This document shows, one piece after another, positions 2,546 through 16,003 of a stretch of 37,408 bases of DNA; the stretch's first letter is position 1, and every line of letters starts with the position of its first letter. The notes beneath the pieces were generated by a model that saw only the letters and a program-made list of their open reading frames with translations, did no database searches and was not told where the DNA came from. The DNA comes from a virus. The stretch covers positions 1 to 37,408 of the IMG/VR virus record IMGVR_UViG_3300027747_003334; one strand, given 5' to 3'. A program made the position numbers and the translations under genes.

Positions 2546-3016
2546 ATGCGTCATCCAACTTCTACAATGATAAACTCAATGGAAGATCTCTTCCGTGATC
2601 TCAATAGGTTTGCCATAGGTTTCGAACCAATGATTGCCAGAGTAGCCAGCAATCCAGTAACCTATCCACCCTACAATCTCACCCACGACGAAAACGGTTA
2701 CAAGCTTGAACTAGCTGTGGCTGGGTTCAAGATGGAAGAGCTAGAGATCTATCTCAGCAATGATCGAGTGCTGATGGTGCGCGGCAGCAAGACTGAGGAT
2801 CAGAACAACCGTAATTGGATACATCGTGGCATAGCTGCTCGCGACTTTGAGCGTCAGTTCACCCTGGCAGAACACATCAAGGTAAACTCAGCCAGGCTGG
2901 AAGACGGCATGCTGATCATAGAACTAGAGCGAGAAGTACCAGAGGCCAGCAAGGGCCGCGTGATACCGATATCCAACGGCAATGTCATTGACGTAAAGGT
3001 CAGTAGCGCGGTATAA
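2546..3016 (+). CDS. hsp20: Small heat-shock protein, Hsp20/IbpA-like
   Basis: A 156-residue ATP-independent holdase that would keep unfolded proteins soluble in the cytoplasm. The ATG at 2546 has a perfect AGGAGGT (2534-2540) six bases upstream, so the longer in-frame reading from 2456 is not used. The layout is that of bacterial IbpA: an N-terminal arm with RFAIGFEPM, then YPPYNL, the alpha-crystallin domain with AVAGFKMEELEI, GIAARDFERQF and LAEHIKV, and the C-terminal GRVIPI tail resembling the I-X-I oligomerisation motif. Hsp20 is common in T4-like cyanophages. It is followed by clpS, whose promoter lies in its 3' end, so the two can be expressed together or separately. Confidence 0.95.
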   Translation: MRHPTSTMINSMEDLFRDLNRFAIGFEPMIARVASNPVTYPPYNLTHDENGYKLELAVAGFKMEELEIYLSNDRVLMVRGSKTEDQNNRNWIHRGIAARDFERQFTLAEHIKVNSARLEDGMLIIELEREVPEASKGRVIPISNGNVIDVKVSSAV

Positions 3017-3041: not shown

Positions 3042-3353
3042 ATGGCTGATACAAAGAAAAACACCATGGTTGCGGTGATCGAACGTGTCACGTTAGCACC
3101 TCCCAAGATGTGGGATGTCTGGCTAGTCAACGATGATGTGACCAGCATGGAATTCGTGGTATTGGTGCTGATGCAGATATTCCATCGTACCTTTGAAGAA
3201 GCCCAGGACATCATGATGCACATCCACACCAACGGGCGGGGTATCGCTGGTACATACAGCCACGAAGTTTCCGCCCAAAAGCGCGACGAAACCATCACTA
3301 CCGCACGTCAGCATGGATTCCCGCTGATCTGCGAGATAAAACCCGCTGAATAA
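3042..3353 (+). CDS. clpS: ClpS, N-degron adaptor of the ClpAP protease
   Basis: This 103-residue protein aligns over its full length with bacterial ClpS, which binds proteins with destabilising N-terminal residues and hands them to ClpA. The binding-pocket residues known from E. coli (N34, D35, D36, M40, H66) are all present here as N30, D31, D32, M36 and H62. Key segments are VWLVNDD, SMEFVV and GRGIAG. The ATG at 3042 follows GAGGAGAGG; a GTG six bases earlier (3036) sits inside that site and is less likely. The N-terminal tail that contacts ClpA (residues 1-20) is kept but diverged. No ClpA or protease subunit is in the window, so it presumably acts on the host ClpAP. Confidence 0.93.
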   Translation: MADTKKNTMVAVIERVTLAPPKMWDVWLVNDDVTSMEFVVLVLMQIFHRTFEEAQDIMMHIHTNGRGIAGTYSHEVSAQKRDETITTARQHGFPLICEIKPAE

Positions 3354-5863: not shown

Positions 5864-6316
5864 ATGACTGATCTACCATTGCTCAAGATGGATCTTGAAA
5901 ACGGAACCGTCCTGATAGAATGCTACCCACACAAGGCACCAAACCACGTAGCCCAGATAATCAGGCAGGCTGATCAAGGGCTCTATGACGGCACTGACTT
6001 CCACAGAGTGATCGATGGTTTCATGGCACAGGGCGGTTGGACCAAGCAGGCTCTGCCTCAGCTACAGGCCGAGTTCAACGACGTACCTCACACAGAAGGT
6101 ATCTGCAGCATGGCACGCACCAATGATCCAAACAGCGCCAGCGATCAGTTCTTCATCTGCTTTGGCAATGCCAACTTCCTCGATCGACAGTACACCGTCT
6201 GGGGCAAGGTCATCTATGGCATGGACAAGGTGCATGCTATCACACGCGGTGAACCACCGCTTAATCCATCCAAGATCGTGCGCATGCGCACTGCTTATCT
6301 TGAACCAGTGTCTTGA
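5864..6316 (+). CDS. Cyclophilin-type peptidyl-prolyl cis-trans isomerase
   Basis: 150 residues, full cyclophilin core. The active-site segments are FHRVIDGFMAQGG (46-58, with catalytic R48 and Q56 equivalents) and SASDQFFICF (91-100), then a late LDRQYTVWGKV. There is no signal peptide, so it should be cytoplasmic like bacterial PpiB. The start follows AAGGAGAG. It is 32 nt after the SufT-like gene, probably in the same transcript, and its stop codon overlaps the -35 box of the dnaK promoter. It would speed proline isomerisation, possibly for the Pro-rich collagen-like fibres this phage makes (inference). Confidence 0.93.
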   Translation: MTDLPLLKMDLENGTVLIECYPHKAPNHVAQIIRQADQGLYDGTDFHRVIDGFMAQGGWTKQALPQLQAEFNDVPHTEGICSMARTNDPNSASDQFFICFGNANFLDRQYTVWGKVIYGMDKVHAITRGEPPLNPSKIVRMRTAYLEPVS

Positions 6317-6399: not shown

Positions 6400-8256
6400 A
6401 TGAGCAAAGTTATCGGTATTGACCTTGGAACCACCAACAGCTGCGTGGCTGTGATCGAAGGTGGCAAGGCCAAGGTATTAGAAAACGCAGAAGGTGCTCG
6501 CACCACACCCAGCATCGTGGGATTCAAGGACGGCGAGACGCTGGTAGGCGCACCTGCCAAGCGCCAGGCAGTTACTAACCCAACCAACACCCTGCATGCT
6601 GTGAAGCGCCTGATCGGCCGCCGCTACGAAGACGACAGCGTGCAGAAAGACAAGAAGCTGCTGAGCTACGCCATCGTGGCAGCTGCCAACGGCGATGCCT
6701 GGGTTGAAGTGGACGGCAAGAAGATGAGCCCAAGCGAAGTCAGTGCTAAGATACTGACCAAGATGAAAGAAACAGCCGAGCGCTATCTTGGTACATCAGT
6801 TGACCAAGCAGTGATCACCGTGCCCGCGTACTTCAATGACAGCCAGCGACAGGCAACCAAGGATGCAGGCAAGATCGCAGGCATGGAAGTGCTGCGCATC
6901 ATCAACGAACCAACTGCAGCGGCACTGGCCTATGGTATGGACAAGAAGCAGGCCGGAAAGATCGCTGTGTTTGACCTTGGTGGTGGTACGTTTGACGTCA
7001 GCATACTGGAGCTTGGCGACGGTGTGTTCGAAGTGCTCAGCACCAACGGTGACACTCAGCTGGGCGGAGAAGATTTTGATCTGCGCATCGTGGACTTCCT
7101 AGCAGACACTTTCAAGACAGAACAGGGCATCGATCTACGCAAGGACACCATGGCCCTGCAGCGGCTCAAGGAAGCTGCTGAGAAGGCCAAGATCGAACTG
7201 AGCTCTGGTAGCCAGACCGAAGTGAACCTACCCTATATCACCGCAGACAGCAATGGACCCAAGCATCTTGCTGTGACTATCACACGCGCCAAGCTGGAAC
7301 AGCTGGTAGATGATCTGATCACGCGCACCCAGGGTCCATGCCGCAAGGCTCTAGCTGATGCCGGACTACAGGCCGGCGACATCAGCGAAGTCATCCTGGT
7401 TGGTGGTCAGACTCGCATGCCCAAGGTGCAGCAGGCAGTCAAAGACATCTTCAAGCGTGATCCCAGCCAGGGCGTGAACCCAGACGAAGTGGTTGCCATG
7501 GGTGCCGCAATCCAAGGAGGCGTGCTACAGGGTGACGTCAAGGACGTGCTGTTGCTGGACGTGACTCCTCTAAGCCTGGGCATTGAAACGCTGGGAGGTG
7601 TGTTCACCAAGCTGATCGAGCGCAATACCACCATCCCAACCAAGAAGAGCCAAGTGTTCAGCACAGCTGCTGACAACCAGCCGGCTGTGAGCATCGCAGT
7701 GTTCCAAGGCGAACGCCAGATGGCACGCGACAACAAGAGCTTGGCCAACTTTGAACTAACTGGCATCGCACCAGCACCTCGCGGCATGCCGCAGATCGAA
7801 GTGACCTTTGACATCGACGCCAACGGCATCGTTCACGTCAGCGCCAAGGACCAAGCCACTGGCAAGGAACAGAAGATCGCCATCCAAAGCAGTGGTGGAC
7901 TCAGCGATGAAGACATCGAACGCATGGTCAGAGAAGCTGAGGAGAATGCCGAAGCTGACAAGGCCAAGCGCGAAGTCATCGAGACTCGCAACGGTGCTGA
8001 GAGCCAGATACACATGGCAGAAAAGCAGCTGAGCGAGCATGATGACAAGATCCCTGCTGAGCTCAAGGCTGAGGTTGAAGCAGCCATTGCCGAGGTGCGC
8101 ACTGCTATCGCAGGTGATGATGTCACTGAGATGCGCCCAGTCTTGGAAAAGTTTGGACAGACACTGATGAAGATTGGCGAGATCGTATACAAGGCACAGA
8201 GCGCGCCTCCGAGCCCAGACGAACCAATCGACGTAGAAGCCAAACCAGCAAACTGA
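6400..8256 (+). CDS. dnaK: DnaK (Hsp70) chaperone
   Basis: 618 residues and complete. The ATP-binding motifs are intact: DLGTTNS (8-14), K69, DLGGGTFD (192-199 with T197), and [11 protein letters not shown]. The interdomain linker VLLLD is present near residue 385, followed by a normal substrate-binding domain and helical lid. The start at 6400 follows GAGGAGA. The tail ends DVEAKPAN and lacks the EEV-type end of typical bacterial DnaK. Sequence flavour ([28 protein letters not shown]) is alphaproteobacterial, suggesting capture from such a host. No DnaJ or GrpE lies next to it, so it likely uses host co-chaperones or genes elsewhere on the phage. Confidence 0.97.
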
Positions 8257-9089: not shown

Positions 9090-9117
9090 TTGACAGATCA
9101 TGCGATCGTGCTATAGT
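9090..9117 (+). promoter_or_regulatory. Sigma70-like promoter for the arfA-like gene
   Basis: TTGACA (9090-9095), starting one base after the previous stop codon, 16-bp spacer, TATAGT (9112-9117). Confidence 0.65.
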
Positions 9118-9118
9118 A

Positions 9119-9136
9119 CCTCAGGTCCATATGAGG
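9119..9136 (+). promoter_or_regulatory. Short inverted repeat that can pair with the arfA ribosome binding site
   Basis: CCTCA and TGAGG are complementary arms; the right arm overlaps the GAGGAAG ribosome site. The expected start site (about 9124) lies after the left arm, so only read-through mRNA from upstream could form the hairpin. With only 5 bp this is tentative. Confidence 0.3.
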
Positions 9137-9144
9137 AAGTAACC

Positions 9145-9276
9145 ATGCGCAACATGCACGCCAAAGCTCTGGAAAGTCCTCTCTTCCGCCAACGCAAGAT
9201 CGCAGCCCGCAAGGGCAAAGGTGCTTACACACGAAGAGACAAGCATGCCAACAAGCAGCAAATGGATGTTCGATAG
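9145..9276 (+). CDS. arfA: ArfA-like alternative ribosome-rescue factor (43 aa)
   Basis: This 43-residue ORF starts at the ATG at 9145 after GAGGAAG and has its own promoter. The core ALESPLFRQR, then RKGKGAY and RRDKHANK, closely matches E. coli ArfA (DPLFRQR, KKGKGSY, RKGKHGNR). ArfA enters stalled ribosomes on mRNAs without a stop codon and recruits RF2. E. coli ArfA is made longer from an mRNA that is cut within its gene and is active as a truncated ~55-residue form. This version simply ends with TAG just after the basic segment, so it would be active without mRNA cleavage. The last 32 nt overlap the next gene. Confidence 0.82.
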   Translation: MRNMHAKALESPLFRQRKIAARKGKGAYTRRDKHANKQQMDVR

Positions 9277-10940: not shown

Positions 10941-10968
10941 TTGACAGCGCTCCCATCTGTGTTACATT
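10941..10968 (+). promoter_or_regulatory. Sigma70-like promoter for the polytopic membrane protein
   Basis: TTGACA (10941-10946), 16-bp spacer, TACATT (10963-10968). Confidence 0.6.
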
Positions 10969-10975
10969 GAACACA
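10958..10975. promoter_or_regulatory. Inverted repeat over the -10 region (possible operator)
   Basis: TGTGTT and AACACA form a perfect 6-bp inverted repeat with a 6-nt centre, covering the -10 box and likely start site of the promoter at 10941. Such placement fits a repressor site, but no partner protein is identified. Confidence 0.3.
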
Positions 10976-10993
10976 TAGCACAGAGGAGCCTTT

Positions 10994-11500
10994 ATGAGCC
11001 ATCGCAATGGTTTTTTAGACTGGTTAGCTAGATTTTTGACCATATTTTCACTGCTGACAGGACTGGTGCTGATAACCAGAATCCAGCGAGGTTTCATCTA
11101 TTGGGCAGCGATGAGCGTGCCTTGGATCTGGTTCATAGTAGGCAGCCAGCCAGTGGTGATTGATGTGTCCGTTGTCTCATTGTTCTGGAGCATGGTTTTG
11201 TTAGCAGCATTGCTTTTCTGGTTAGGCAATGCCCTGGATCATGATGGTGGTGTCACTGCTGTGGTTTGGTGGTTACCTGTGATGTTGCTGCCTTTTGGCA
11301 TCATGATCTTTGGAAATACCACTGTGCTGAGCGATGGTTCAGACGGTCGACCAAAGACCTACAGGCACATGACACAAGACTGCAGCAAGCAGATGGCCAA
11401 CGTGGCTGATCATGGCAATACATACAACCGCGACGGCAGCTATGTGCCCTGCGGTCCCATGCGCTTCTACTATGATAATGACCCAAGAAACGCCATCTAA
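10994..11500 (+). CDS. Polytopic membrane protein with soluble C-terminal tail, unknown
   Basis: 168 residues, starting after GAGGAG. About four hydrophobic segments (roughly residues 12-30, 33-50, 58-78 and 85-106) are followed by a 60-residue polar tail with two Cys (TQDCSKQM and YVPCGPM), which might pair if the tail is periplasmic. No family recognised. It has its own promoter upstream and is followed by rIIA, which has its own promoter. Position next to rIIA suggests a role in the membrane during infection, but that is only guilt by association. Confidence 0.65.
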   Translation: MSHRNGFLDWLARFLTIFSLLTGLVLITRIQRGFIYWAAMSVPWIWFIVGSQPVVIDVSVVSLFWSMVLLAALLFWLGNALDHDGGVTAVVWWLPVMLLPFGIMIFGNTTVLSDGSDGRPKTYRHMTQDCSKQMANVADHGNTYNRDGSYVPCGPMRFYYDNDPRNAI

Positions 11501-11547
11501 GGATAAAATACCAAGCAATTTCAATGTCGTAAAACCTTAAAATTCGC

Positions 11548-11575
11548 TTGACATATCAGCATTGCGTGCTATTAT
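11548..11575 (+). promoter_or_regulatory. Sigma70-like promoter for rIIA
   Basis: TTGACA (11548-11553), 16-bp spacer, TATTAT (11570-11575), in the TGCTATTATGAA context shared with the promoter at 8734. Confidence 0.7.
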
Positions 11576-11601
11576 GAAGCATGGAAAAAAAAGGAGCTGT
11601 C

Positions 11602-13716
11602 ATGAAGATCGCAGACACAGCAACAGCAACAGCAGCAGATAGCAACGGTGCTTTCACCATCGCAGCCACTGGCAAGGCCTTCAAGATCCTCAGCGATGGT
11701 CTCTACAGCGACAAGATCAAAGCCATCGTGCGCGAGCTCAGCTGCAACGCACGTGACAGCCATGTGGCAGCAGGCAACACCAATCCGTTCGTGGTACATC
11801 TGCCCACTGACGCGCAGCCTTGGTTTGCTGTGGAAGACCGTGGTATTGGGCTCAGTGAAGAAGACGTGCTCAACGTCTACACTCGCTATTTTGCCAGCAC
11901 CAAGACCACCAGCAACGACTTCGTGGGACAGCTGGGCCTGGGCAGCAAGAGCCCTTTCAGCTACACCAACCAGTTCACCGTGGAGAGCTCACACGCAGGC
12001 ATCAAGACCACCTATGAGATGAGCATTGATGGCAGCGGTACGCCCCGCGCTGCCAAGCTGTTCAGCGGTCCTGCCCAGGGCTCTGGCATCACCGTGAGCT
12101 TCAAGGTCACGCATGATTATCACCGTTGGCACGACAAGGCCATGGAAGTGCTGCGTTGGTTCACGCAGAAACCCATCATCACTGATGGCCAAATGACATT
12201 TGATCCCGCACTGACGCAGGAACCTGTGCATCAGGGCACTGGATGGCGCATCTGGTCCAAGGCATTCTGGAACGGCAATTACACGCAGATCCTCATGGGT
12301 GGTGTGCTCTATCCCTTGGACCGCCACAGCATCCCAGACTTGGATCACCGCATCGGCTATCTCTGTGACTTTCCCATCGTGATTGACATGCCCATCGGCG
12401 ACTGCGACGTGGCTGCCAGCCGCGAAGGTCTCAGCTATGACCAGCGCACGGTACAGAACATCATCAACCGACTCACTGCTGTGCGAGACGAGATGGTGGC
12501 CATGGTCAGCGGTGCCATTGGCCAGGCACCCACGCTGTGGAAGGCACACGAACATTGGGCGAGGTATTTCCAGGGTGCTCTGGGCTTTGGCATGCGCCGC
12601 GTGTTTGAAGATGTGGTGCTGGAGTGGCAAGGCCACAACATCGACCGTGGTAACATGGTAGTGGATGCCGTGAAGCTCTATGGCACCAAGGAGCACGGTG
12701 TGCGACTGCTGCCAGCAGACATCAAGAGCGTGCGTGTGCATGACGGCTTCATGCTGCCCTGTTCAGACCGGACCAAGGTGGTCTTTGACGATCTCAAGAA
12801 GGGCGGATTGGCCCGCACGCGGCAGATGCATGCCACAGCTGGTTATGCCAACACAGTGGCCATGTTCCCCTATCGCGGGGGCTGGGATGTGTTGCGTGAA
12901 CAACTGGGCAATCCCGAGGTGATCTACACCAGCACGCTGCCGGAAGTGGCCAAGAAGACCAAGACCACAGTGCAGCAGGTCTGGTCACTGAACCACCACA
13001 GCCGCAACGGTGGCAAGTGGGCATGGAAGGAAGTTGATCCGGCCACGCTGCCCAAAGGCAAGCTGGTCTATGTCACGCTCAAGAACTGGGACGTGATCAC
13101 TGGCCACAAGCATCTGGGACGCTATGGTCTGGACTCGCTGAGGTCAGCTGCGGTGCAGACGGGACTGATGAAATCGGATGCTGTGATCTACGCGGTGCGT
13201 CCAGCCAGCGTGCGCAAGCTGGATGCTCAGCGTTGGGTTGGCCTGCATGATCATCTGGAGCCCATGGTCAAGGCCATGTTGTCCGAACCCAAGACGCATG
13301 CGATGTACCGGGCACATGCTGAGCAATCGCAGGTGCAGGATGTGGTTCCGACCACCATCAACAAGCTCAGCGCTGTGGTTGGCATGTTGCGCAGCAAGGT
13401 CCGTGATCCAGACAGCGAGCTGATCAGTTTCCTCGGGGGACTCAGCGACATGAAGGCTGCCAGCAACGTGGATCTGGGACCCTATCGCACTCTGCAGCGG
13501 CACTATGAGATCAGCATGCCTGAGTTTGATGAGCGCACCTCAGTGGGCCAAGAAGCTGGACGCATTGCTCGCAAATATGGCATGTTCAGATACGTGAACC
13601 TTGGCTATCACATCGATCAGGAAGCCATGGCTGATCTGGTCAACTACATCGATGCCGTGGACACTGCGCATGTGTTCCTCAGCCTCAGCAAATCAGACGC
13701 AGAAACTGAGCAATGA
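11602..13716 (+). CDS. rIIA: rIIA-like protein (GHKL ATPase fold), lysis/superinfection control
   Basis: 704 residues, similar in length to T4 rIIA (about 725). The ATG at 11602 follows AAGGAG; an ATG at 11581 precedes that site. The N-terminal GHKL ATPase fold is clear: KAFKILSDGLYSDKIKAIVR, N-box E45/N49/D52 (RELSCNARD), DRGIGLS (79-85), and GLGSKSPFSYTN (112-123), matching T4 rIIA closely. In T4, rIIA with rIIB acts at the membrane during infection and is needed in cells carrying the lambda Rex system. No rIIB is seen next to it. The remaining ~500 residues are less conserved and not assignable by eye. Confidence 0.9.
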   Translation: MKIADTATATAADSNGAFTIAATGKAFKILSDGLYSDKIKAIVRELSCNARDSHVAAGNTNPFVVHLPTDAQPWFAVEDRGIGLSEEDVLNVYTRYFASTKTTSNDFVGQLGLGSKSPFSYTNQFTVESSHAGIKTTYEMSIDGSGTPRAAKLFSGPAQGSGITVSFKVTHDYHRWHDKAMEVLRWFTQKPIITDGQMTFDPALTQEPVHQGTGWRIWSKAFWNGNYTQILMGGVLYPLDRHSIPDLDHRIGYLCDFPIVIDMPIGDCDVAASREGLSYDQRTVQNIINRLTAVRDEMVAMVSGAIGQAPTLWKAHEHWARYFQGALGFGMRRVFEDVVLEWQGHNIDRGNMVVDAVKLYGTKEHGVRLLPADIKSVRVHDGFMLPCSDRTKVVFDDLKKGGLARTRQMHATAGYANTVAMFPYRGGWDVLREQLGNPEVIYTSTLPEVAKKTKTTVQQVWSLNHHSRNGGKWAWKEVDPATLPKGKLVYVTLKNWDVITGHKHLGRYGLDSLRSAAVQTGLMKSDAVIYAVRPASVRKLDAQRWVGLHDHLEPMVKAMLSEPKTHAMYRAHAEQSQVQDVVPTTINKLSAVVGMLRSKVRDPDSELISFLGGLSDMKAASNVDLGPYRTLQRHYEISMPEFDERTSVGQEAGRIARKYGMFRYVNLGYHIDQEAMADLVNYIDAVDTAHVFLSLSKSDAETEQ

Positions 13717-13720
13717 TAAT

Positions 13721-13749
13721 TTGATAGCTCTCCGATCGTGCCACATAAT
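13721..13749 (+). promoter_or_regulatory. Sigma70-like promoter for the glycosyltransferase gene
   Basis: TTGATA (13721-13726), 17-bp spacer, CATAAT (13744-13749). It starts five bases after the rIIA stop codon and overlaps a large inverted repeat. Confidence 0.5.
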
Positions 13750-13769
13750 TACTGGTGTAACGATCGGAG
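13730..13769 (+). promoter_or_regulatory. 10-bp inverted repeat that sequesters a ribosome binding site in read-through mRNA
   Basis: CTCCGATCGT (13730-13739) and ACGATCGGAG (13760-13769) are perfectly complementary, with an additional CAC/GTG pair inside. The right arm contains GGAG, the ribosome site of the gene at 13776. The -10 box lies between the arms, so mRNA from the local promoter (start near 13756) lacks the left arm and has a free ribosome site. Read-through mRNA from rIIA would hide it. T4 genes e, soc and 49 use this logic. It could also be a DNA operator. Confidence 0.65.
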
Positions 13770-13775
13770 ACTCCA

Positions 13776-14489
13776 ATGGAACTTACTCAAGACATGGTCA
13801 AGGTGCTGCAGTCAGCCAGGGTTCACTTCTGTATCCCCTGCTACGGTGGCCAGATCAACGAAGGCACCTTCATCAGCATGCTGAAATACATGGCCACGGC
13901 TCAGCGCCTTGGGTTGAATTTCACCATAGACACCATGGTAAACGAAAGCCTGGTTTGCCGCGCACGCAACAGCTTGGTTGCCAAGATGCTGTATTTCGAA
14001 CCCAAGAGCACGCATCTGATGTTTGTTGACGCAGACATTGGCTTTGAGCCAGAAGAGATCTTCAAGCTGATCATCGCTGACAGGGACGTGGTCGGTGGGC
14101 TGTATCCCAAGAAGGCCCTGCCCATCAGCTACGTGGTCAACAAGGTACCAGGTGCTGAAAAGGAAGGCAACTTGGTAGAAGTGGCCAATCTGGGCACAGG
14201 CTTCATGATGATCAAGCGTCATGTGCTGGAGCAGATGATCGCCAAGCATCCAGAGCTGCACTATGTGGACAGCATCGGTCTGGATCCCAAGTACGATCCG
14301 TTCAAGTATGCGCTGTTTGACACAGAGATCGACAACGACAGCAAGGAATATCTATCAGAAGACTATACCTTCTGCAAGCGCTGGCGTGCCATGGGTGGCA
14401 AGATCTGGGCAGACTTGACTATAACGCTGAACCACATCGGTTACTTTACCTTCCGTGGTGACGCTACGCAGCTACAGCCTCATCTCTGA
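13776..14489 (+). CDS. GT-A fold glycosyltransferase
   Basis: 237 residues. VHFCIPCYGG at the start, NESLVCRARNSLVAKML, and THLMFVDADIGF with the D85-A-D87 metal/nucleotide-sugar motif match a glycosyltransferase family common in T4-like cyanophages. Later ANLGTGFMMIKR and SEDYTFCKRW are typical acceptor-side motifs (the ED pair acting as base). No membrane segment. It might glycosylate phage DNA, virion or host surface; the acceptor is unknown. It has its own promoter plus a hairpin control element. The radical SAM gene follows after 18 nt. Confidence 0.85.
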   Translation: MELTQDMVKVLQSARVHFCIPCYGGQINEGTFISMLKYMATAQRLGLNFTIDTMVNESLVCRARNSLVAKMLYFEPKSTHLMFVDADIGFEPEEIFKLIIADRDVVGGLYPKKALPISYVVNKVPGAEKEGNLVEVANLGTGFMMIKRHVLEQMIAKHPELHYVDSIGLDPKYDPFKYALFDTEIDNDSKEYLSEDYTFCKRWRAMGGKIWADLTITLNHIGYFTFRGDATQLQPHL

Positions 14490-14507
14490 TCAAAAGGTCC
14501 GCGGCGC

Positions 14508-15668
14508 ATGATAAGCCCAACTTTCTGTGCTGCGCCGTGGACCGTGCACTGCGTGAATGCCAGCGGCACTGCTGGCATGTGCTGTTTGAATCACAGGGTC
14601 ACTGTGCCTGTGGATCAACACAAACAACTGCTATCAAGCCAGAGCCTGCACGATATAAAGCTAGGGATGCTGGCCGGCGAACACATCGATGGCTGTGAGA
14701 AGTGCTACAGCAATGAGCTGCAGGGAATCTACAGTCTTCGGAAGATGTACAATGACTTGACTGGTCAGGTTCTGGATCAATCAAGATTAGCAGAGCCCGG
14801 CTACGAGAACAGAGTATGGTACGACCTAAGTCTCAGCAATCTCTGCAACCAAAAATGTCGCATCTGTGGGCAGTACAACAGCACAGCTTGGCACAAGGAT
14901 GCCATGGCCATGGCTGATCTGCCCTGGGCACATCAAAATACCTATCATCTAGATTCTGTGCTGATTGAGAACCATTCAGCCATAGATGACATTTTGGCCA
15001 GCATGCAGGCATCAAAGGATGAATTCAAGATAGAACTCAAGGGTGGTGAGCCTCTCTATCTAGACACTAGCCTGAGGCTGTTGGAAGAGATGATAAAGCT
15101 AGGTCTCAATGATCGCACACGTGAACTGCGCATCATGACCAACGGCACGCAATATGATAACAGGGTCATGCAGCTGTTGGAGCTGTTCCCTAGTATAAAC
15201 ATGAGCTTCAGCATAGATGCGATCGGTAAGCTGCATGAATACACTCGCGGTACAAGCATCACCTGGGATCAGTGCAGGCGCAGCTGGCAGCAGCTGATCA
15301 AGCTACCAAACATCAGCAAGTTCAGGGTCAGCAACACCATCTATGCCTACACGGTACTGAGAGTTCCGGAATTGATAGATTGGGTTCACAGTGAGTTTGG
15401 CAAGCAGACCAGCATGAGCCACAGCATGCTGCACAAGCCAAGATATCTAAGAGCCAATCTGGTTCCGCATCACCTGCGACAGCGCACGGTTGATAGGCTG
15501 ATCAACTATCCTGCTCTGGCAGCAAGTTTGATAATTGATCCAAAGAGCGATGACGCAGAGGTAGCTGAGAGACGATCACAGTTCAAGCTGTATACTCAGC
15601 GATTGGATCAGCTGCGTGGCGAAAGCTTGTTAGATCTGGTGCCAGAGCTGGCTGAGATGATGGCATAG
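14508..15668 (+). CDS. Twitch-type radical SAM protein with N-terminal cysteine cluster
   Basis: 386 residues. The radical SAM motif is C-x3-C-x2-C (C113, C117, C120 in LCNQKCRICG), with LKGGEPLY as the GGE motif. An N-terminal module, FCAAPWTVHCVNASG, CC (25-26) and GCEKCYSNE (C63, C66), looks like an extra Fe-S or SPASM-like site. Proteins with this build are frequent in aquatic phages and often lie by glycosyltransferases. Substrate unknown; a peptide or sugar is possible. The start at 14508 has only AAAAGG upstream. The 3' end overlaps the convergent coiled-coil gene by 61 bp. The SufT-like protein at 5493 could help supply its clusters (inference). Confidence 0.85.
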   Translation: MISPTFCAAPWTVHCVNASGTAGMCCLNHRVTVPVDQHKQLLSSQSLHDIKLGMLAGEHIDGCEKCYSNELQGIYSLRKMYNDLTGQVLDQSRLAEPGYENRVWYDLSLSNLCNQKCRICGQYNSTAWHKDAMAMADLPWAHQNTYHLDSVLIENHSAIDDILASMQASKDEFKIELKGGEPLYLDTSLRLLEEMIKLGLNDRTRELRIMTNGTQYDNRVMQLLELFPSINMSFSIDAIGKLHEYTRGTSITWDQCRRSWQQLIKLPNISKFRVSNTIYAYTVLRVPELIDWVHSEFGKQTSMSHSMLHKPRYLRANLVPHHLRQRTVDRLINYPALAASLIIDPKSDDAEVAERRSQFKLYTQRLDQLRGESLLDLVPELAEMMA

Positions 15669-16003
15669 TCCATGCTATGCGTTTCCATCCAGGCGTCCAT
15701 GATCTCCAATCTGGCTTCGATGTCTTTGATCTGCCTTGATACCAATATGTGTTTGGCAGCATCTAATCGCTCTCTGATGCTGCGCTCAACCAAGTCATCA
15801 ACCTTGCTGGTAAGGTATTTCTCCAAGCTGTTGGTCAGCTCATAGTGCTGCTTGTCTGCCAAAAGTTGTTCACGGTGTCTCAGCATGCTCTCTAATCTCT
15901 CATCAGGACTGCCATTGAGGCTGGCCACCACCGCAGCAAATTCAGACTGGGCTCTGATAAACCTTAGATCATCGAGAATGTCTGTCATCTGTTGTTGGTC
16001 CAT
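15608..16003 (-). CDS. Coiled-coil protein, unknown function
   Basis: 131 residues. The start at 16003 is supported by AAGGAG eight to nine bases upstream. The protein is almost all helix with heptad-like spacing (QSEFAAVVASL, REQLLADKQHYELTNSLEKYL, RERLDAAKHILVSRQIKDIEARL), rich in Leu, Glu, Arg and Gln. No family recognised. Its last 20 codons lie antisense to the end of the radical SAM gene. The gap to the plus-strand gene at 16050 is only 46 bp. Confidence 0.65.
   Translation of the reverse strand: MDQQQMTDILDDLRFIRAQSEFAAVVASLNGSPDERLESMLRHREQLLADKQHYELTNSLEKYLTSKVDDLVERSIRERLDAAKHILVSRQIKDIEARLEIMDAWMETHSMDYAIISASSGTRSNKLSPRS

Follow-up and report, generated by a model that had tools for sequence, protein, structure and literature searches.

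Predicted promoter-of-origin gating of a T4-like phage gene by a sigma70-like promoter nested in a Shine-Dalgarno-hiding hairpin

RESULTS

A promoter between the arms of an inverted repeat

The window, which is the whole 37,408-base stretch of a virus record that we analyzed, comes from a large, T4-like phage and raises the question of whether translation of one of its genes depends on which promoter made the RNA. This gene, a 237-aa ORF, lies behind a rIIA-like ORF whose own promoter would drive transcripts into it, and the 59-nt gap between the rIIA stop (13716) and the start of the 237-aa ORF (13776) holds a -35, a -10 and both arms of an inverted repeat. The elements of the locus are:

11548..11575, + strand: strong early-type rIIA promoter TTGACA-N16-TATTAT (consensus scan, 11/12, with TG before the -10)
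11581..13716, + strand: rIIA-like ORF, candidate source of read-through RNA (phrog_612 RIIA, E 2e-110)
13721..13726, + strand: -35 hexamer TTGATA (sequence, promoter scan)
13729..13739, + strand: left arm TCTCCGATCGT, between the -35 and the -10 (11-bp perfect repeat)
13744..13749, + strand: -10 hexamer CATAAT, within CATAATTA, in the hairpin loop (promoter scan)
13754..13758, + strand: putative transcription start, placed by promoter geometry ~7 nt past the -10
13760..13770, + strand: right arm ACGATCGGAGA (11-bp perfect repeat)
13766..13769, + strand: Shine-Dalgarno (SD) GGAG, entirely within the right arm
13776..14489, + strand: candidate regulated ORF, 237 aa, ATG at 13776 (phrog_1574, unknown function; weak glycosyltransferase similarity)
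14508..15668, + strand: radical-SAM-like ORF, 18 nt downstream of the 237-aa ORF (Pfam Radical_SAM, E 4e-5, below the curated cut-off)

Judging by its SD, the rIIA-like ORF probably starts at 11602, and the radical-SAM-like ORF is probably co-transcribed with the 237-aa ORF, for which a search of solved structures gave no match. The nested promoter has a 17-nt spacer and a 10/12 consensus match, weaker than the early consensus of the lineage, and an inner CAC/GTG adds 3 bp to the 11-bp perfect stem. An earlier note on this DNA had described 10-bp arms flanking the -10, with a GGAG ribosome site in the right one; both placements hold, and the arms prove to be 11 bp long and perfectly matched. 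Rfam 15 at gathering score had no match within 11000-16000. Elsewhere in the window, Pfam identifies phage-encoded ClpS adaptor (3042-3353), Hsp20-like (2546-3016) and Hsp70 (DnaK; 6400-8256) proteins, and the ORF at 5864-6316 has, by eye only, the look of a peptidyl-prolyl isomerase.

Predicted folding of read-through and own-promoter RNA

We propose that the leader acts as a promoter-of-origin gate for the 237-aa ORF. Read-through RNA from rIIA would carry both arms and form the 11-bp (+3-bp) hairpin with the SD buried, so that this copy of the ORF would go untranslated, whereas RNA from the nested sigma70-like promoter would start at about 13754-13758, without the left arm and with its SD accessible. 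With read-through RNA gated in this way, protein synthesis from this gene would require transcription from its own promoter.

For RNAs with a 5' end at or before 13729, the predicted cost of opening the SD is 10-11 kcal/mol and its unpaired probability 0.000-0.003; with a 5' end at 13735-13762 the values become 1.4-2.6 kcal/mol and 0.36-0.53, and RNA from any 5' end at or past 13735 is predicted to lose the stem. This sharp switch with the 5' end, found on folding both transcripts as the earlier note had suggested, agrees with its claims that read-through mRNA would fold (predicted SD unpaired probability ~0.001) and that mRNA from the internal promoter would lack the left arm, the -10 lying between the arms and the start being placed by geometry. 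A start ~7 nt past the -10 would put own-promoter RNA in the SD-accessible class. The SD in that RNA is predicted to be only ~40% unpaired, which counts against the gate.

Rarity of the arrangement

The window has three separate perfect 11-bp inverted repeats whose arms lie 3-40 nt apart, versus 0-4 in shuffled sequences, so chance alone could produce such a repeat, and the count of promoter-like matches across the region is that of shuffled sequence. We therefore rejected the idea that the repeat is remarkable by itself, since about one such repeat per window is expected by chance. The rare features are its placement and its conservation. When the promoter spacer and discriminator were shuffled and the hexamers kept, the SD was buried as deeply in 9 of 9600 shuffles. 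Among 501 start sites from seven related records, the leader in the window ranks 5th and other leaders of the same gene 1st, 4th, 7th and 19th; as a gene family, the 237-aa ORF ranks first of 20.

Conservation of pairing in relatives

Homologues of the 237-aa ORF were found in other viral contigs (one of 518 kb) at 67-99% identity; we refer to the window's leader as W and to those of the homologues as L001-L008 and L208-L211. A homologous leader is common to W, L001, L002, L003 and L004, with CATAATTA invariant in all five. Compared with W, the arms of L004 (TCTCCGATTTG/CAGATCGGAGA) show two double changes and one wobble, those of L002 one double change, two wobbles and some broken pairs, and those of L001 one broken pair and one outer pair gained. 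Arm positions pair in 87.5% of cases in these leaders versus 30-52% when the partner is slid, a comparison resting on four distinct sequences only, and four pairs are changed on both sides, a value reached by 40 of 500 shuffles. The arms of L005 (89% identity) and L211 (71%) are unrelated to those of W and accompany TTGGTA-N17-TATACT and TTGATT-N18-TATAAT, respectively, with the SD again in the right arm. Compensatory and wobble changes, together with these independent arms, support selection on pairing and not on one sequence. The -35 stands at the same place in relatives, as TTGTTA, TTGAAA, TAGATA, TTGGTA and TTGATT.

In W, L001-L005 and L211, the predicted cost of SD opening is 7-14 kcal/mol in read-through RNA versus 0.4-2.7 kcal/mol in own-promoter RNA (p 0.0025-0.005 each, 0.0025 being the floor). 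The hairpin of L208 is weak (p 0.16), and the opening-cost test found no SD-hiding hairpin in the leaders L006, L007, L008, L209 and L210. Combining p values gives 3e-6 across the four lineages in which a promoter can be recognised; with the negatives added, all nine together give 6e-5, which is the safer figure because the promoter-bearing lineages were picked after the leaders had been seen. The gene lies downstream of rIIA in W, L001, L003, L004 and L005 (in L005 as judged from rIIA C-terminal sequence), of a radical-SAM gene in L002, and of another gene in L208 and L211. In L002, the leader has thus stayed with the gene while the neighbour changed. A DNA-pattern scan of viral contigs for the leader gave mostly unrelated places among the matches listed.

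Comparison with T4 and other known systems

T4 e, soc, 49, I-TevI/II/III and segB, and Aeh1 mobE, are described as silent on longer transcripts and as translated when RNA starts at a promoter close by, in most cases a late one (PMC3014915, PMC2988022); the genes under SD-hiding regulation are all late (PMC2988022). The leader in the window resembles all of these in having its SD hidden in read-through RNA (predicted unpaired probability 0.001 in the longer transcript), and in a promoter whose RNA would lack the 5' arm, as the -10 lies between the arms and the start would fall beyond it. It is unlike e/soc-type cases with a described nested promoter, which is late (TATAAATA), in that its promoter is sigma70-like with a -35: in place of the T4-type late sequence we find CATAATTA, with a TTGA-like -35 in relatives.

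As a control we applied to T4 a 60-nt metric of SD opening in read-through versus own-promoter RNA, which recovered e (14.1 versus 5.3) and 49 (6.2 versus 1.6) and missed soc, a documented case. Unexpectedly, regB (13.1 versus 0.9 kcal/mol) and denV (10.5 versus 1.5 kcal/mol), which have early promoters, showed the same nesting. Among 28 T4 starts with an early-promoter pattern, 10 reached p<=0.05 (1.4 expected; binomial 6e-7) and 7 reached p<=0.01 (binomial 1e-8), including those of modB, nrdC.8, denV, regB and mrh.2. The ten nested early starts are:

NC_000866, minus strand: 13130, 53885, 8161, 65355, 136275, 62740, 130253, 15232, 123032 and 70623

In other T4-like phages, the denV and regB leaders have in most cases kept the layout with changed arms. 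The regB promoter is described as typical early with no mention of a hairpin (PMC3014915), and the T4 reviews PMC3014915 and PMC2988022 hold no description of the denV/regB hairpin. Record X04567 marks as potential terminators the inverted repeats around the -10 of denV and of regB, in which the right arm holds the ribosome site. The window's leader shares with these two a -35/-10 promoter with the left arm in its spacer, a sigma70-type -10 in the loop and the SD in the right arm, whereas its gene is unrelated to either. The earlier note had seen here the logic of T4 e and soc built around a sigma70-like promoter; the promoter class stands, the -35 being kept in hairpin-bearing relatives, while the uniqueness it implied gives way to the likeness with denV, regB and other T4 early promoters. 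Sigma70-like nesting is not peculiar to this phage and appears to constitute a recurrent, under-described phage design. In IS10/Tn10, IS50/Tn5 and IS200, incoming RNA likewise folds into a hairpin that hides the SD, and RNA from the element's own bacterial promoter is free of it; unlike the gene studied here, those are transposase genes of mobile elements. Our search of the open-access literature for sigma70-nested cases and IS10-type protection returned nothing usable, which is not proof of absence.

Nested promoters in the window's lineage

Sequences enriched upstream of genes in the window and in related records G001-G006 are TTGACA with a TGCTATTAT-like -10, and a T4-like late nATAAATA. 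Large SD-hiding contributions from upstream sequence occur at 9 of 110 starts with an early-type promoter and 11 of 126 with a late motif, versus 20 of 777 other start sites, so that nesting is modestly but significantly enriched in this lineage (p 0.006 and 0.002, respectively). A rule covering all strong lineage promoters was rejected, as a first test (8/66 versus 12/160) was not significant, the modest excess given above coming from a larger set.

Several individual cases were also observed. At window 10941-11000, a second nested promoter (TTGACA-N16-TACATT) has the SD of the ORF at 10994 in an arm (GCTCC..CTGTG / CACAG.GGAGC) and ranks 6th of 501. The second-ranked family (window 9090-9157, G003 18362, G002 15773 and G001 15845) has short arms, CCTCA/TGAGG in the window and of the ACCTCT/AGAGGAGGT type in G003, which lie just upstream of the presumed start and at the SD and show an apparent compensatory change. 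Late-motif (ATAAATA) promoters inside SD-hiding hairpins, resembling T4 gene e, occur in relatives at G006 32083 (minus), G004 200921 (plus) and G004 503498 (plus), and G003 also has one.

Alternative explanations

The leading alternative, which we nevertheless consider unlikely, is that the nested promoter is a variant phage late promoter, making this a straightforward late gene of the T4 e/soc type. A single base separates CATAATTA from nATAAATA, the late motif of the lineage, no 6-mer is more strongly enriched upstream of lineage genes than TAAATA, and some lineage late motifs are nested likewise; against this, a TTGA-like -35 is kept at 17-18 nt from the -10 in the hairpin-bearing relatives, whose TATACT and TATAAT fit sigma70 better, and we therefore take 'sigma70-like' as the better reading. 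That a chance repeat fell on a chance promoter match is a very improbable account: it draws on the chance-level numbers of both, and is contradicted by the position of the repeat, the leader's rank among start sites and pairing that is conserved while the sequences change.

Two further readings, each of which we regard as improbable, give the repeat a different role. Its symmetry about the -10 and the palindrome CGATCG in each arm would suit a promoter-overlapping DNA operator bound by a dimeric regulator, with RNA folding incidental. Pairing nonetheless persists in L005 and L211 with unrelated arms, the G-U pairs of L002 and L004 suit RNA as opposed to a DNA dyad, the SD portion of the right arm does not vary, and T4 early leaders show the same layout with many different sequences. 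The stem starts 13 nt past the rIIA stop, as might a terminator or 3'-end stabiliser of rIIA overlapping the next promoter by chance, and the X04567 annotation of the denV/regB repeats is a precedent. However, no U-run follows the stem, which excludes it from the intrinsic terminators (downstream is CTCCAATGG), and a terminator scan gives no site at 13729-13770; L002, L208 and L211 keep the architecture (weakly in L208) behind a different upstream gene, and the SD is within the stem every time.

DISCUSSION

A promoter-of-origin gate at the leader of the 237-aa ORF is, in our judgment, the likely explanation, and its basis consists of the elements themselves, the predicted folds of both RNAs, the conservation of pairing and the enrichment of nesting at promoters. 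If rIIA read-through RNA is made and its hairpin keeps ribosomes off in the cell, the phage would gain control over the timing of this protein. Whether the arrangement is a general device of T4-like and large phages, by which early genes are licensed only on their own early-promoter RNA and stay silent on later read-through RNA, we consider evenly balanced; if true, it would mirror in reverse what is known for late genes, with T4 denV, regB, modB and others as directly testable examples. If the gate is right, translation of a gene would depend on which promoter made the RNA, so that RNA abundance alone would misjudge the expression of such genes in phage transcriptomes, and there would be a simple explanation of how phages with long overlapping transcripts stop early proteins from being made late.
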